This document shows positions 16,965-30,800 of a DNA stretch of 32,394 nucleotides, piece after piece (positions within the stretch are counted from its first letter, which is position 1; each line of letters begins with the position of its first letter). The notes beneath the pieces were generated by a model. It was given only the letters and a program-made list of their open reading frames with translations. It had not been told where the DNA came from and made no database searches. The position numbers and the translations under genes were made by a program. The stretch is from Actinomycetota bacterium (lineage in GTDB: Bacteria > Actinomycetota > Actinomycetes > Nanopelagicales > Nanopelagicaceae): positions 1-32,394 of the forward strand of contig WLKK01000007.1 in NCBI GenBank assembly GCA_009701305.1, written 5' to 3'.

Positions 16965-17120
16965 GAAAACCTTCCCTAAGTGCGAAGTCAGAATACTCGC
17001 TAGTGCGGTGTATAAGACCTTACTTCAGATAACTTTTAATCACAGCTTTTAGTTTTGCACATTTCGTTAGCAGCTAAAAATATCAAACTGAGTATCGAGT
17101 TAGTTTTCCCCTGCCCGTTT

Positions 17121-17200
17121 CCTTCTCGAAACAAGTTGAGCACGCTCGCCAGCGTTCACTCACTTGTTTTCCCTGCTAATTGCAGGGGAAATCGAGAAGG
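17121..17200 (+). promoter_or_regulatory. Long-range hairpin in the leader that would bury the Shine-Dalgarno site of the 31-codon gene (copy A)
   Basis: CCTTCTCGA (17121-17129) is complementary to TCGAGAAGG (17192-17200). With G-U pairs the stem can extend over the GGGAG of the ribosome site at 17199-17203. Inside it lie a second stem (AAACAAGT with ACTTGTTT) and a local hairpin (CCCTGC with GCAGGG). An upstream CCCCTGC at about 17108-17114 can compete for the same GCAGGGG, giving two mutually exclusive folds. Confidence 0.6.
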
Positions 17201-17209
17201 GAGGATGTT

Positions 17210-17305
17210 ATGGATTATGGAAACTGGATCGCCCTATTGGCGATTTTCGCTAATTTAATAATTTCGATTATTAAAACGCGAAAGGCTCACCCAGAAGATG
17301 AGTGA
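17210..17305 (+). CDS. 31-residue hydrophobic peptide, candidate type I toxin (copy A)
   Basis: ATG 17210 to TGA 17303-17305. The peptide begins MDYGNW, has one hydrophobic segment (residues 6-21, WIALLAIFANLIISII), then a basic patch KTRK (22-25) and an acidic end HPEDE. GGGAGGA ends four bases before the ATG, giving a GGAGG-to-ATG gap of 5, the best ribosome site in the window. An in-frame duplicate at 25265 differs at one residue (T23 here, R23 there). Single-span peptides of about 30 residues with charged tails are the usual toxin class of type I toxin-antitoxin loci (Fst, TisB, BsrG), which kill or arrest by damaging the inner membrane. That function is inferred. Other options are a small membrane regulator, or chance coding inside a structured RNA. 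Confidence 0.6.
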   Translation: MDYGNWIALLAIFANLIISIIKTRKAHPEDE

Positions 17306-17373
17306 GCCCAGATTCACAAAATCCCTCTAACGGAGGGTAGGTGGTTTCGGGAAGAAATTCCCGGACCATCTGA
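17275..17373 (-). ncRNA. Candidate antisense RNA to the 31-codon gene (copy A)
   Basis: On the minus strand TTACAT (17407-17402) and TATACG (17385-17380), 16 bp apart, form a modest promoter that recurs in copy B. RNA starting near 17373 would contain two hairpins (CCCGG...TTCCCG pairing near 17347-17372 and CCCTC...GAGGG near 17323-17337) and end at the hairpin GGCTCAC (17308-17302) / GTGAGCC (17290-17284) followed by a T-rich tail. It would overlap the last codons and stop of the small gene. Purely predicted. Confidence 0.4.
17284..17308 (-). terminator. Hairpin terminator on the minus strand, overlapping the 3' end of the 31-codon gene (copy A)
   Basis: A 7-bp GC-rich stem with an 11-nt loop; on the minus strand it is followed by TTTCGCGTTTTAAT, while the plus-strand side has no T-run. 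It therefore reads as a minus-strand terminator placed inside a coding region on the other strand. The same arrangement is in copies B and C. Confidence 0.5.
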
Positions 17374-17478
17374 GGAAAGCGTATAGCAAGTTGATTTTGA
17401 AATGTAAGAAAATCTCACAAAATTGCAAACTACTTTGGGTAACTTTTTTCTTAGAGGCTGTTGTCTCTGATTGTTAAA

Positions 17479-17533
17479 ATCGAACCCACTACACTTCCCT
17501 TAGGTCAAAAGGGTGCTCTATCCAATGAGTTAC
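17479..17533 (-). pseudogene. tRNA remnant (copy A), missing the acceptor 3' side
   Basis: On the minus strand the D-arm (CTCATTGGATAGAG) and the anticodon stem-loop CCCTT-TTGACCT-AAGGG are identical to the fuller copy at 24980-25054. The T-arm is broken and the acceptor 3' strand is lost, so it cannot make a tRNA. Confidence 0.55.
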
Positions 17534-17592
17534 AAAGTTGAAGGCCCTGATAGAAATGGCGGGGTCTTTAACACTTAATCATCGGGTCGGGG

Positions 17593-24970: not shown

Positions 24971-24979
24971 TAGTGTGCG

Positions 24980-25054
24980 TACCACTGGCGGGAATCGAAC
25001 CCGTTACACTTCCCTTAGGTCAAAAGGGTGCTCTATCCAATGAGCTACAGAAAT
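24980..25054 (-). tRNA. tRNA-like gene, divergent; anticodon loop reads GAC (Val) if functional
   Basis: 75 nt on the minus strand. The D-arm GCTC-ATTGGATA-GAGC, the anticodon stem CCCTT/AAGGG with 7-base loop TTGACCT and the T-loop TTCGATT with a 4-bp stem are all present. Faults: the acceptor stem has one mismatch and two G-U pairs, the outer T-stem pair is A-C, the variable loop is 7 nt, and position 37 is C, where a purine is the rule. CCA is not encoded (CGC follows the discriminator A). It has its own flanking terminators. It may be a diverged functional tRNA or an early pseudogene. Two more decayed copies exist at 17479-17533 and 25535-25592. Confidence 0.45.
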
Positions 25055-25084
25055 AAAGACCCCGTCAGAGATGACGGGGTCTTT
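25055..25084. terminator. Bidirectional hairpin terminator between the tRNA-like gene and copy B
   Basis: AAAGACCCCGTCA (25055-25067) and TGACGGGGTCTTT (25072-25084) form a perfect 13-bp stem with a GAGA loop and A/T-rich ends, so it can act in both directions. Decayed versions lie at 17541-17569 and 25596-25625, always beside a tRNA fragment, so tRNA plus terminator were copied as a unit. Confidence 0.8.
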
Positions 25085-25175
25085 AACATTTAATTAACAG
25101 TTGTTAATTTTACACAGTTCGTTAGTAGCAAAAAATATCAAACTGAGCATCGAGTTAGTTTTCCCCTGCCCGTTT

Positions 25176-25255
25176 CCTTCTCGAAACAAGTTGAGCTCGC
25201 TCGCCAGCGTTCACTCACTTGTTTTCCCTGCTAATTGCAGGGGATATCGAGAAGG
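25176..25255 (+). promoter_or_regulatory. Leader hairpin burying the Shine-Dalgarno site of the 31-codon gene (copy B)
   Basis: CCTTCTCGA (25176-25184) pairs with TCGAGAAGG (25247-25255); G-U pairs can extend it to 25173 and 25258, covering GGGAG of the ribosome site at 25254-25260. Inner stem AAACAAGT (25184-25191) / ACTTGTTT (25217-25224) and local hairpin CCCTGC (25226-25231) / GCAGGG (25237-25242) are nested inside. CCCCTGC at 25163-25169 is an alternative partner for 25237-25243. Confidence 0.6.
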
Positions 25256-25264
25256 GAGGATGTT

Positions 25265-25360
25265 ATGGATTATGGAAACTGGATCGCCCTATTGGCGATT
25301 TTCGCTAATTTAATAATTTCGATTATTAAAAGGCGAAAGGCTCACCCAGAAGATGAGTGA
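25265..25360 (+). CDS. 31-residue hydrophobic peptide, candidate type I toxin (copy B)
   Basis: ATG 25265 to TGA 25358-25360, with GGGAGGA at 25254-25260 directly upstream. The peptide matches copy A except Arg23 for Thr23, so the basic patch is KRRK (22-25) after the hydrophobic segment (6-21). The only nucleotide difference from copy A in the 96-base gene is AGG versus ACG. A UUCG-capped hairpin TTTAATAAT/ATTATTAAA is built into codons 16-22. The inner membrane is the likely site. Function is inferred from size, hydropathy, buried ribosome site and antisense arrangement, not from homology. This copy may be the better preserved one, since the flanking tRNA and terminator are also intact here. 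Confidence 0.62.
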   Translation: MDYGNWIALLAIFANLIISIIKRRKAHPEDE

Positions 25361-25429
25361 GCCACTAGCACCATAAATCCCTCTAACGGAGGGTAGGTGG
25401 TTTCGGGAAGAAATTCCCGGACCATCTGG
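25329..25429 (-). ncRNA. Candidate antisense RNA to the 31-codon gene (copy B)
   Basis: Minus-strand TTACAT (25463-25458) and TATATG (25441-25436), 16 bp apart, would start RNA near 25429. It folds into a long hairpin (TGGT..CGGGAA with TTCCCG..ACCA, 25398-25426), a CCCTC/GAGGG hairpin (about 25378-25392) and the terminator hairpin at 25339-25363. About 30 nt would be complementary to the end of the small gene. Boundaries are estimates. Confidence 0.4.
25339..25363 (-). terminator. Minus-strand hairpin terminator overlapping the 3' end of the 31-codon gene (copy B)
   Basis: GGCTCAC (25339-25345) pairs with GTGAGCC (25357-25363). On the minus strand the hairpin is followed by TTTCGCCTTTTAAT. 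The plus strand lacks a T-run here. The stop codon of the small gene lies in the stem. Confidence 0.5.
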
Positions 25430-25534
25430 CGAAAGCATATAGCTAATTGACTTTGAAATGTAAGAAAATTTCCCGAAATTGCAAACTACTTTGGGTTACT
25501 TTTTTTCTTACAGTTGGTTGTCTCTTATTGTTAA

Positions 25535-25592
25535 GATCGAACCGCTACACTTATATTACGTCAGAGGGTCGCTCTATCCAGTAAGTTACAAA
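25535..25592 (-). pseudogene. tRNA remnant (copy B)
   Basis: On the minus strand a recognisable D-arm (TTACTGGATAGAGC) and TTCGATCTT T-loop remain, but the anticodon stem has lost pairing; the loop region reads CTCTGACGTAA, again containing GAC. More decayed than the copy at 17479-17533 in the anticodon arm. Confidence 0.5.
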
Positions 25593-25595
25593 GTT

Positions 25596-25625
25596 AAAGG
25601 CCCTGTCAGAAATGACGGGGTCTTT
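25596..25625 (+). terminator. Hairpin terminator at the end of copy B
   Basis: AAAGGCCCTGTCA (25596-25608) pairs with TGACGGGGTCTTT (25613-25625) using two G-U pairs, loop GAAA, followed by a strong T tract (TCTTTTTCTTT). Related to the perfect hairpin at 25055-25084. Confidence 0.7.
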
Positions 25626-25633
25626 TTCTTTGT

Positions 25634-25720
25634 GGAAACTGGATCGCCCTTTTGGCGATTTTCGCTAATTTGATAATTTCGATTGTTAAAAGGCGAAAGG
25701 CTCACCCAGAAGATGAGTGA
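25634..25720 (+). pseudogene. 5'-truncated relic of the 31-codon gene (copy C)
   Basis: From codon 4 (GNW) to the TGA at 25718-25720 the frame is intact and encodes the same peptide with I21V. Two other changes from copy B (CTA to CTT, TTA to TTG) are synonymous. The leader, ribosome site and ATG are gone; a terminator sits directly upstream and no in-frame start follows it closely. The downstream hairpins and possible antisense promoter (TATACG) remain, up to about 25862, where homology stops at the end of the next gene. Confidence 0.65.
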
Positions 25721-25854
25721 GCCCAGATTCACAAAATCCCTCTAACGAAGGGTAGGTGGTTTCGGGAAGAAATTCCCGGACCATCTGGCGAAAGCGTATA
25801 GCTAATTGAGTTTGAAATGTTAGAAAATCTAGCGAAATTGCAAACTACTTTGGG

Positions 25855-27651
25855 TTACTTACTCCGAAAACCGGCAGGGCATTTAGGGTTGGTTCCAGTT
25901 ACTTTCCTTACTGTTTTACCCTTTATGCAAGTGATTGAAAGCTTTTTAGCAATAACTTGTGGGGATGGTGTTGCTGCAGCCGATGGTGTGGCTGACGGAG
26001 TTGGTGTTGGTGCGGGTGTCGCTATCACCTTATCTTGTTTTAATGAAACTTTTAAAGTCGGTGATGAAAATTGGAAATTGTTAGCAGTCAAATACAACCA
26101 ACCATTTTTTTCATTTACAACAGTTGTTGCAATCTGAGGTGTGCCGTCGTTGCTTACTATCGAAATTGAAGCTTTGATCGGAGCATTTGAAAATCCGTAA
26201 ATGCAACGTGCTACTTCGGAGCGCATGACAAGGTCATAGGTGCCCTTGAAAACATCTGCTCCATTTGGAAGATAGTGAGGAGCGGCAACTTGATAATTTA
26301 GATCTCCTGCATCTTTATCGTATACAGGTGGACCCGGTGAATATGCAGTTGCATTAGTTGTAACAATTCCGTTTAATGCCGTTAGATCAGTAAAACATTT
26401 ATTCGCACCTTGTAGCTCACGCTGAGTTAGTGAACGAAATGACCAGAACTGAGGTACAACCGTCGCAGTGTTGTCGACATAAGGTAGCCAGAGATTTAGT
26501 TCATCCATTGCTGATGAAGAATAAGGACTTGGAGCTGTAGTCCAGGCACGCACGCTGTAATCTGTTGATCGAGAAATTGTGTTCGACCAGCCTTCACCAC
26601 CATTTATAACTAATCCAGTACTTCGATCGAAATATTTTCCCGAACTTGGATCATAATTATTCTGCAATTTAGTTGGCATATCGGCCCACATAAAGTGCTT
26701 ATAAACCGTTGGAACACCTATTGGATTGGCTGTAACTGTTAAGAGGGTATTTGTTCCAGATTTTTCAATGGAGATTTCTGGATTAGTCATTCGCCCATGC
26801 ATCCAGCCTGCCGGTGTAATTGAAAGACGCACTTTCAAAGCAAATCTGAAATCTTTTGGGTAGGCCTGCTTTTGCGCGCAGAGGCTTTCACCTACTGAGC
26901 CATCAGCGCAACCAATTCCAGAACTTCCGCTTTCATTCCAGATATAACCTGAGCCTTCATTATTCAATTTATTCCAGCCGGTATTACATAATTTATTTTC
27001 GCTCAAACACCATGGAAATGAATACTGTTTAGGCTGCAATTGCACAGGAACAATTCTGGAATGAACTGAAGTTAATTTTGCGGAGCCGCCTTTAGAAATA
27101 TTTCCAGACATTATGAAAGATACAAAGTAGGTACTTCCAGCTGCTCCTTCGGCTCCAGGGATGTTAAATAAACTTGCACCTCCCCCAGATGGGAGATTGG
27201 CACTAGGACTGCCTTCAAATTTATTTTGCGCAGTATCTGGGAAATACCGCATGAAAGAACCGGGGTACACCTTCCCACTTGTATCAATTGCACTTACTGC
27301 CTCAATGCAATTTGTTTCAATGGCCGAATTACAAACTGGAATCTGGGCATAGTAAATAAAATTCTGAGCCGCTGAGCACTTTGGATCATAGAGTGAGGAA
27401 CATGTGGGATCTTCTTGGGCCTTGGGTCCAATTTTTGCTTGATCTAAAAGAGCAGAATAATCACGGTCTTCTGATGATCTCTCACCGAAATAACCATTTT
27501 GGCTACCAAGCCCTGTTGTGTTATCTGGAACTACCCAACCTTGATTGACATCAATAATATTTTCAGCACTCTGCGAGGGTGATGCAAAAACTGCTCCCAC
27601 CATAAATAGGGAGCAAAAGAGCGCAATAGTAGAACGAAAACTAAATCGCAT
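25855..27651 (-). CDS. Large secreted protein of unknown function with Pro/Thr linker and C-terminal CIKGK...CPAGF tag
   Basis: 598 residues. A signal peptide (RFSFRSTIALFCSLFMVGAV..., cleavage near VFA-S or QSA-E) starts it. The body has several Cys pairs (CSSLYDPKC, CNSAIETNC, CLSENKLC, CADGSVGESLC), suggesting disulfides in an exported protein, and ends in the strand NEKNGWLYLTANNFQFSSPTL also found in the 410-residue protein. A PTPTPSATPS-type linker (about 548-570) separates it from the final SITCIKGK...TGTNPKCPAGF tag. No enzyme motif is recognised. The TAA stop at 25855-25857 lies in the last bases of copy C, so the repeat abuts, and may have reshaped, the 3' end of this gene. It is divergent from the giant repeat gene. 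Confidence 0.75.
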   Translation of the reverse strand: MRFSFRSTIALFCSLFMVGAVFASPSQSAENIIDVNQGWVVPDNTTGLGSQNGYFGERSSEDRDYSALLDQAKIGPKAQEDPTCSSLYDPKCSAAQNFIYYAQIPVCNSAIETNCIEAVSAIDTSGKVYPGSFMRYFPDTAQNKFEGSPSANLPSGGGASLFNIPGAEGAAGSTYFVSFIMSGNISKGGSAKLTSVHSRIVPVQLQPKQYSFPWCLSENKLCNTGWNKLNNEGSGYIWNESGSSGIGCADGSVGESLCAQKQAYPKDFRFALKVRLSITPAGWMHGRMTNPEISIEKSGTNTLLTVTANPIGVPTVYKHFMWADMPTKLQNNYDPSSGKYFDRSTGLVINGGEGWSNTISRSTDYSVRAWTTAPSPYSSSAMDELNLWLPYVDNTATVVPQFWSFRSLTQRELQGANKCFTDLTALNGIVTTNATAYSPGPPVYDKDAGDLNYQVAAPHYLPNGADVFKGTYDLVMRSEVARCIYGFSNAPIKASISIVSNDGTPQIATTVVNEKNGWLYLTANNFQFSSPTLKVSLKQDKVIATPAPTPTPSATPSAAATPSPQVIAKKLSITCIKGKTVRKVTGTNPKCPAGFRSK

Positions 27652-27886: not shown

Positions 27887-30800
27887 TTGGTTCATACTCT
27901 AAAAAAGATTTCTCTCATACTATTTTTTTCATTAATACTTGGCAATTTTGCCGTTGCTCCAGCCCAAGCGGATTTTCCAGCTTCAACAGGTTACGATCCC
28001 CAAGGAATTACAATTGACTCATTAGGAAATATTTATACATCAAACTATAGATGGAACGGTGGACTTTACACTGTCACAAAAATTACCCCAGATGGTGTCT
28101 CTTCAATTTTTGGAACAACAGGTACTCAGCCCATAGGAATCACGGTTGACTCAGCGAATAATATCTATACAGCAAACTATGGATCAAACAATGTCACAAA
28201 AATTACACCAGATGGCGCCTCAACAATTTTTGGAACAACAGGTACTCAGCCCTTTGGAATAACCGTTGACTCGGCCGGAAATATCTATACGGCAAACAGT
28301 GGATCCAACGATGTCACGAAGATTACGCCAGCAGGTGTCTCATCAATACTTGGCACAACAGGTGCAGGTAGTTATCCCGCTGGAATTACTATTGACTCAT
28401 TAGGAAATATTTATACAGCAAACCAAGGTAACTACAGAGTCACAAAAATTACACCAGATGGTGTCTCATCAACTTTTGCTTATACAGGTCAAGGACCCCA
28501 AGGAATAACCATTGACTCGTCGGGAAATATTTATACAGCAAACACTCAATCCGACAGTGTCACAAAAATTACGCCAGAGGGTGTCGCAACAACTTTTGCC
28601 CAGACAGGAAGATTGCCCATACGAATCACGGTTGACTCAGCGAATAATATCTATACCGCAAACTATGGATCCGACAATGTCACAAAAATTACACCAGGTG
28701 GAGTCTCATCAATTCTTGGCTCAACAGGTAGTTACCCCAATGGAATCGCTGTTGACTCAGCGGGATATGTCTACACCGCAAACTCTGGGTCGTACACTGT
28801 CACAAAGCTTGACCCAATATCCGCGAGAAATCCGCTCTCCTTCTCTTTATCTTCAGCGTCGCAAAGTGTGACTCAAAATTCAGCAATTAGTACAGTAACT
28901 ACTGTTTCAACTGGTGGTGAGATTTTGTCCTATGCGATATCACCAGCAGCCCCTACTGGCTTAACCTTTAATACCGCAACTGGCCAGTTGAGTGGCACAC
29001 CAACTCAAATCCAAAGCGCAACTAATTATACGATCACAGCCACAAATACCGCTGGTTCAGCTACGCGCACATTTACACTCACTGTAAGTAAGGCAACTCA
29101 ATCCACCTTAACCTTTGCATTAAGTAGTGCAAGTAAAATCCAACCCTACTCACAGGCTATTACGATGACTCCATCTGGAGGCTCTGGAACAGGGGCGATC
29201 ACCTACGCAATTGCAGCAGGGGGAAGTGCGGCCAATTGCGCACTGGCTAATTCAACGCAGACAAATACCGTCACTGCATCATCAGGTGGCACCTGCCTAA
29301 TTCAAGCAACCAAGGCAACTGACAGTAATTACCTAGTTGCCACTAGTGCCACTCAGACATTTACCTTCACATACGCTACGGCTTCAACAGGTAGTCTGCC
29401 TTATGGAATAACCATTGACTCAGCGGGAAATATCTATACCGCAAACAGTGGATCCAACAATGTCACAAAAATTACACCAGGTGGAGTCTCATCAATTCTT
29501 GGCACAACAGGTAAAGGGCCCTATTCAATAACTGTTGACTCAGCGGGAAATATCTATACCGCAAACGAAAACTCCAACAATGTCACAAAAATTACACCAA
29601 ATGGTGAATCATCAACTCTTGGCACAACAGGTAGCTATCCCAGCGCAATAACCATTGACTCAGCGGGAAATATCTATACATCAAACTGGGGATCCAACAA
29701 TGTCACAAAAATTACACCAGGTGGTAGCTCATCAACTCTTGGCACAACAGGTAGTAGGCCCTGGTCAATAACAATTGATTCAGCGGGAAATATCTATACC
29801 GGAAACGAAGGATCCAACAATGTCACAAAAATTACACCAGCTGGTGTCTCATCAACTCTTGGCACAACAGGTAGTAATCCCCGAGGAATAACCATTGACT
29901 CAGCGGGAAATATCTATACCGCAAACGTTGAATCTGACAATGTCACAAAAATTACACCAGCTGGTGTTTCAACAATTCTTGGCACAACAGATCCCGAGCC
30001 CCGAGGAATCACCACTGACTCCGCGGGAAATATCTATACCGGAAACTTCGGAGGCCCCACTGTCACAAAGATTACACCAGGTGGTGTCTCATCAACTTTT
30101 GGCTCTTCTCCGGGTAATCCCACCGCAATAACCATTGACTCAGCGGGAAATATCTATACCGCAAACTACTTCAATAATACTGTCACAAAGATTCTTTCAG
30201 CAGTCCCAGTCTTCTCTTTGTCTTCAGCGTCGCAAAGTGTGACTCAAAATTCAGCAATTAGTACGGTAACTACTATTTCAACTGGTGGCCCGATTGCATC
30301 CTATGCAATCTCACCAGCAGCCCCTACGGGCTTAACCTTTAATACCGCAACTGGCCAGTTGAGTGGTACGCCAACTCAAACTCAAAGCGCAACTAATTAT
30401 ACGATCACAGCCACAAGTACTGCTGGTTCAGCTACGCGAACCTTCGCACTCACTGTAACCTCAAAAATTACACCAACCTTTACTTGGTCTGGTCTTTCTA
30501 AGAGTTACGGTGACTCCCCCTTCACACTTACCGCTCCAACCGCCTCAACCGCAGGTACTTTTACCTACTCTTCTGCAAGTACAGGTGTGATCGCATTAAA
30601 TAATGTTAATACCGATAGTGCAACTGTTGTTGGATCTGGAACATCGGTGATTACCGCAACCTTTACACCTACTAATACCGCTACTTACAACACCGCTACT
30701 ACTACCATGACAGTTACAGTAAGTAAGGCAACTCAATCCGCCTTAACCTTTGCATTAAGTAGTGCAAGTAAAAATCAACCTTACTCACAGGCTATTACCA

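Follow-up and report, generated by a model that had tools for sequence, protein, structure and literature searches.

The leader under study lies in copy B of a repeated element, at about 25085-25500 of the window, by which we mean the whole 32,394-nucleotide stretch of actinobacterial DNA that was analysed. An earlier note had read this leader as an RNA with alternative folds that hide or expose a ribosome-binding site, in the manner of type I toxin loci. The locus raises two questions, namely whether the ribosome-binding site is folded shut, and what kind of gene would need such a lock. Taken together, folding and comparison point to a family of small, highly structured mRNAs in freshwater actinobacteria, in which the ribosome-binding site is predicted to be folded shut and the open reading frame encodes a membrane-type peptide of 27-39 residues.

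A repeated element and its distribution

The element occurs three times in the window.

About 25085-25500, plus strand: copy B, with the leader under study (repeat comparison)
17049-17444, plus strand: copy A, full length, 93% identical, open reading frame at 17210-17305
25630-25859, plus strand: copy C, truncated at its 5' end, without leader, Shine-Dalgarno site or start codon (repeat comparison)
25484-25499, minus strand: 3' border motif GTAACCCAAAGTAGTT (motif search in genome G000)

In G000, GTAACCCAAAGTAGTT has exact matches only where copies B and C end, and matches with one mismatch where copy A ends and at one other site. A role as a genome-wide regulatory site was considered and rejected, as the three best matches are element ends and the others are weaker single sites. 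Truncated copies (25630-25859 and loci L048, L044, L047, L052, L005, and L045) differ in their 5' breakpoints and have the 3' end and the border motif AACTACTTTRRGTTAC in common. At copy C the stop codon of the convergent gene (25855-25857) is the TAA of the border motif, and by eye the 3' ends of L045 and L046 apparently show the same overlap. A tRNA-Val (gac) gene precedes copy B on the minus strand (24979-25054), and decayed tRNA-Val and terminator remnants follow copies A and B (17480-17570 and 25542-25625; compare 25001-25084), as if the element had been duplicated beside that tRNA gene. Behind the element, positions 27999-30199 hold a large array of protein-coding-like 120-bp repeats and longer duplicated blocks (92%).

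Relatives were collected with a DNA pattern, a peptide search, and two leader models (R1 and R2), and were grouped by peptide and leader into alpha (which includes the window), beta, gamma, delta, and epsilon. Of 296 genomes from the window's order, 27 were found by model R2 to carry the element, all of them in the window's family and spread over 4 of 17 genera. The only matches outside the family were marginal and unconvincing on reading: L080 (E 0.009) in a class sample of 395 genomes searched with R1, and L097 (E 0.003) in a phylum sample of 396 genomes searched with R2. Phages, plasmids, and viral contigs gave no match to the element, its tail pattern, or its leader pattern. A search of Rfam, with the gathering score as cut-off and with E values of up to 10, matched only the tRNA; IMES-4 was rejected with a score far under its threshold, and integron attC core motifs, sought by eye, did not fit.

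A leader that buries the Shine-Dalgarno site

The predicted leader consists of three helices around the Shine-Dalgarno site.

25174-25184, plus strand: 5' strand of stem P1 (the anti-Shine-Dalgarno strand), containing CCTTCTCGA at 25176-25184 (alignments and folding)
25185-25223, plus strand: hairpin P2, with the conserved apical part CGCCAGCG (alignments and folding)
25224-25244, plus strand: local hairpin P3, CCCTGC (25226-25231) with GCAGGG (25237-25242) (two-sided compensatory changes)
25247-25257, plus strand: 3' strand of P1, containing TCGAGAAGG at 25247-25255 and overlapping the first four bases of the Shine-Dalgarno site (alignments and folding)
25254-25259, plus strand: Shine-Dalgarno site GGGAGG, 5 nt before the ATG at 25265; GGAGG is kept in alpha and gamma

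The segments on which the earlier note had built its model (CCCCTGC at 25163-25169, CCTTCTCGA, CCCTGC, GCAGGG, TCGAGAAGG, the Shine-Dalgarno site, and the ATG) are all in place, and every pairing segment is kept in copy A (17108-17212), as it had said. The stem that it proposed between CCTTCTCGA and TCGAGAAGG is P1, which has a probability of 0.97-0.98 in copies A and B and in every 3' truncation folded, from 108 to 331 nt. The suggested extension into the Shine-Dalgarno site is also borne out, with G25254-A25257 paired; in most truncations G25259 is mostly unpaired and G25258 partly so. P1 closes a three-way junction with P2 and P3, and the minimum free energy fold of 25108-25360 pairs the named segments and does not leave the site open. 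Opening its six bases costs 5.1-10.3 kcal/mol, varying with the 3' end of the RNA, against only 1.1-4.7 kcal/mol in 12 other genes of the window. When 20 leaders were folded singly, all placed most or part of the Shine-Dalgarno region in a stem with upstream leader. A three-way junction was the usual form, and some weaker beta and epsilon folds differed in detail.

The stability of the leader exceeds what its composition gives. The 253-nt region 25108-25360 has a z of -3.48, with 0 of 200 shuffles as stable, and the leader reaches -45.1 kcal/mol compared to -28.4 +/- 3.3 in shuffled upstream sequence. Closure of the Shine-Dalgarno site alone is weak evidence, since the site is G-rich and closure is equally tight or tighter in 56 of 300 shuffled leaders. 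We regard covariation in homologues as the decisive evidence for the predicted stem. Alignment A5 (38 matches giving 35 distinct leader rows, two of them, L097 and the 18-bit opposite-strand match L068, probably spurious) has 95.2% of cells paired, compared to 44-51% after sliding and 84.2% after shuffling. Two-sided changes are found in 25 of its 35 pairs, including 8 of the 11 pairs of the Shine-Dalgarno stem.

A4 and A5 are model-fitted alignments that lean towards the structure, and 12 full-length beta RNAs were therefore aligned by sequence alone with MAFFT. Their RNAalifold consensus recovers the Shine-Dalgarno stem, P2, P3, and the hairpins of the open reading frame, and the stem again has two-sided changes (columns 14/91, 15/90, and 16/89). 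In the alpha-only alignment this stem is nearly invariant, so that support there comes mainly from P3 and the reading-frame hairpins. P3 is the local hairpin of the earlier note, and it keeps its pairing through two-sided changes. The central proposal, that the leader hides the Shine-Dalgarno site, is thus supported by a predicted fold that is kept with compensatory changes and would keep translation off.

Such a lock could also serve a small membrane protein whose leader is an RNA thermometer or a switch that responds to a factor, with neither toxin nor antisense antitoxin. The stem around the Shine-Dalgarno site and its large opening energy agree with this, the apical loop of P2, CGCCAGCG, is strongly conserved and could bind such a factor, and lake organisms meet temperature changes. 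However, P1 is so stable that it fits an environmental thermometer poorly, the tail and the open reading frame are structured as well as the leader, and the element is multi-copy, patchily distributed, and partly decayed. We consider this explanation unlikely.

The open reading frame and its peptide

The open reading frame and the hairpins that overlap it are as follows.

25265-25360, plus strand: open reading frame MDYGNWIALLAIFANLIISIIKRRKAHPEDE, 31 codons, for a cationic peptide predicted to span the membrane once (subgroup pN/pS 0.20, hydropathy, homologues)
25283-25299, plus strand: hairpin within the reading frame, AUCGCC...GGCGAU (compensatory changes across alpha)
25339-25363, plus strand: hairpin spanning the stop codon, GGCUCAC...GUGAGCC; unrelated hairpins stand in its place in subgroups and families (alignments and folding)

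The ratio pN/pS is below 1 in all six groups compared (0.20, 0.39, 0.92, 0.60, 0.58, and 0.26), where the third value comes from three sequences only and says little. These ratios indicate that the open reading frame is under purifying selection. In the peptides, which have 27-39 residues, basic residues come after a hydrophobic stretch whose 17-residue mean hydropathy is 1.2-2.5. Hydropathy and selection together predict the short hydrophobic membrane peptide that is looked for in a type I toxin. No match was obtained at the curated cut-offs of Pfam (window peptide and six homologues) or NCBIfam (window peptide only), and PHROGs and PADLOC gave no significant family for the peptides.

These data also bear on the idea that the element is a structured non-coding or mobile RNA in which the short reading frame is secondary or incidental. 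Within alpha, the leader (93% mean column identity) and the tail are indeed more conserved than the open reading frame, and the truncated copies with their common 3' end and border motif would suit a mobile element. Against this, the Shine-Dalgarno site, its spacing, and the ATG are kept, pN/pS is below 1 in every group, all 13 beta reading frames have 39 codons, and the order of hydrophobic stretch and basic residues recurs across families. An incidental reading frame is accordingly given little credence.

Predicted partners of the 5' end

The tail downstream of the stop codon is structured, and part of it is predicted to pair with the 5' end.

25165-25171, plus strand: 5'-end segment CCUGCCC, predicted partner of GGGUAGG (probability 0.54-1.00 in tail-containing constructs)
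25391-25397, plus strand: tail segment GGGUAGG, predicted partner of the 5' end (folding and duplex energies)
25379-25393, plus strand: tail hairpin T1, CCCUC-UAACG-GAGGG, whose GGG competes with the 5'-3' pairing (alignment and pattern scan)
25395-25427, plus strand: tail hairpin T2, AGGUGG..CGGGAA-GAAA-UUCCCG..CCAUCU, in which one sense-strand G-U pair does not vary (alpha alignment)

The pairing CCUGCCC:GGGUAGG has a probability of 0.96-1.00 in constructs ending at 25403 and 25425, and 0.54-0.80 in longer ones. It is invariant within alpha, where native duplexes reach -13.8 to -16.7 kcal/mol. In gamma, CGUCCC or GUCCC pairs with GGGAC(G) at the same place, and native duplexes clearly beat mismatched ones. 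The beta consensus holds a weak, four-pair GCCU:AGGC interaction directly beside the tail hairpin, no such pairing is predicted in epsilon, and the duplexes of these two families are not family-specific. The alpha averages of this duplex comparison contained one empty entry and were left out. Pairing of the two ends is therefore well supported by prediction in alpha and gamma, confined to a four-pair consensus in beta, and missing from the epsilon predictions. A second contact may be present in copy B, where the P2 loop UCGCCAG (CGCCAG at about 25200-25208) is complementary over 7 bases to CUGGCGA in the tail (25426-25432). This complementarity is broken in copy A; in epsilon, GCCGCCAG and CUGGCGGC are by eye complementary between P2 loop and tail. 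It could be a kissing contact.

The earlier note had assigned the 5' end another partner, in a switch where CCCCTGC and CCCTGC take turns in pairing with GCAGGGG, and the Shine-Dalgarno site opens or closes accordingly. The complementarity exists in copies A and B, but the mutually exclusive folds are already largely refuted and very improbable. The CCCCTGC pairing has a probability of 0.000 at every length tested and would cross the Shine-Dalgarno stem, and forcing it costs about 14 kcal/mol for the leader (-31.0 vs -45.1) and 15 for the full RNA. In alpha it lacks two-sided changes and fails in some homologues where P3 changes, and it is P3 that covaries. On present modelling, the tail segment and its adjacent hairpin are the better supported partners of the 5' end.

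Candidate sense and antisense promoters

Three candidate control sites flank the transcribed part.

25108-25116, plus strand: DnaA-box-like site TTTTACACA (NTWTNCACA at a near-fixed upstream offset)
25156-25161, plus strand: candidate -10 element TAGTTT (TANNTT conservation; no -35 consensus)
25434-25439, minus strand: candidate antisense -10 element TATGCT (TANNNT in 13 of 13 listed alpha members)

All 28 alpha, beta, and epsilon members scored have NTWTNCACA upstream of the leader at a distance that is constant to within 1 nt, and 18 of them fit TTWTNCACA by our count. The window has NTWTNCACA 9 times in 64,788 strand positions. In the complete genome G131, TTATYCACAG occurs three times, twice flanking dnaA on either side. 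The upstream site is probably a DnaA box, because the same box variants cluster around dnaA in the genomes of two relatives. Directly before the leader, TANNTT is present by eye in every listed alpha, beta, and epsilon member except one, which would place the 5' end of the transcript near 25163-25168.

On the minus strand, TANNNT behind T2 was seen by eye in all 13 listed alpha members, and T1 is terminator-like on that strand. The conserved -10 makes an antisense RNA starting just behind T2 a candidate, although the pattern scan found no strong sigma-70 consensus there. Both -10 candidates rest on conservation, as neither was reported by the scan.

A probable type I toxin-antitoxin-like module

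The combination of a ribosome-binding site folded shut and a membrane-type peptide makes the family look like a type I toxin. On balance, we think that the element probably provides the toxin in a module akin to type I toxin-antitoxin systems. In overall anatomy it matches type I toxin mRNAs that are translationally silent, as the earlier note had anticipated. Transcription would start at the leader's 5' end from a promoter with a -10 element, where the DnaA-box-like site, lying some 55-60 bases before the start, would take the place of a -35 consensus. The full-length RNA is predicted to be closed: P1 buries the Shine-Dalgarno site, P2 and P3 complete the junction, hairpins form in the reading frame, and the tail segment next to T2 pairs with the 5' end. 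Translation would therefore be very low until the RNA is cut or refolded. The likeliest activating step would be a cleavage that takes away the 5' strand of P1, since the site stays buried in calculations when the tail alone is removed. The product would be a short single-span cationic membrane peptide, and the candidate antitoxin an antisense RNA running from just behind T2 back over the tail. Toxicity, the antisense RNA, the activating step, and DnaA control are elements of the module that we infer.

This type I reading is favoured by leader covariation, the stability of P1, and 5'-3' pairing with different sequences per family. The selection and hydropathy of the reading frame, the upstream box (28/28), and the antisense -10 element (13/13) point the same way at the sequence level. 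Counted against it are a Shine-Dalgarno site that in the models stays hidden after tail removal, unlike in aapA3, the unevenness of the predicted 5'-3' pairing between families, the lack of a strong sigma-70 consensus for the antisense promoter, the model-fitted A4 and A5, and the lack of similarity to a known toxin family in Pfam, NCBIfam, PHROGs, and PADLOC. A bolder version, which we hold as a tentative and rather doubtful possibility, is that these elements form a new type I toxin-antitoxin superfamily, restricted to one lineage within Actinobacteria, with a promoter that DnaA controls through the near-fixed upstream box, coupling toxin expression to replication initiation.

Comparison with known systems

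The aapA/IsoA family of Epsilonproteobacteria consists of short cationic membrane peptides with several loci per genome, and the element shares both features, the peptide by prediction. A Shine-Dalgarno site hidden in the full-length mRNA and an interaction of the 5' and 3' ends, both predicted here, are further likenesses. In contrast, the leader itself mainly hides the site here, the phylum is another, and the antisense RNA is only a candidate; 3' trimming opens the site in aapA/IsoA, whereas here it is calculated to stay buried without the tail. No sequence similarity to aapA/IsoA was found.

The element also resembles tisB/istR and dinQ/agr of E. coli, where the full-length mRNA is untranslated, a shorter form is active, and a small single-span membrane peptide is made; here the structure and the peptide are predicted, and a shorter active form is putative. 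Those two systems are LexA controlled, unlike the element with its DnaA-box-like site. For dinQ, the +44 transcript is reported to be the only active one. In the aapA3 mRNA, a 5'-3' interaction hides the Shine-Dalgarno site and keeps the mRNA inert (PMC6733600). The mRNA of hok/Sok is likewise inert by folding, with its 5' end paired to its 3' end (see also PMC6733600). The element differs from hok/Sok in that no overlapping second frame was seen, the peptide is shorter, and the strand hiding the Shine-Dalgarno site lies upstream.

The family is probably new, judged by the lack of a match in Rfam, Pfam, NCBIfam, PHROGs, and PADLOC, and is type I-like in how its RNA probably works; membership is not claimed. 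A 2021 review describes membrane-associated type I toxins only in Proteobacteria and Firmicutes (PMC8309996), and a search of a limited literature collection found no paper on type I toxin-antitoxin systems in Nanopelagicales. With a covarying family of toxin-like mRNAs in freshwater actinobacteria of small genome size, this kind of gene would reach another phylum, and a testable link between DnaA and toxin expression would come with it. It would also show that a lock on the Shine-Dalgarno site can be built into the leader and is not made by the tail only.
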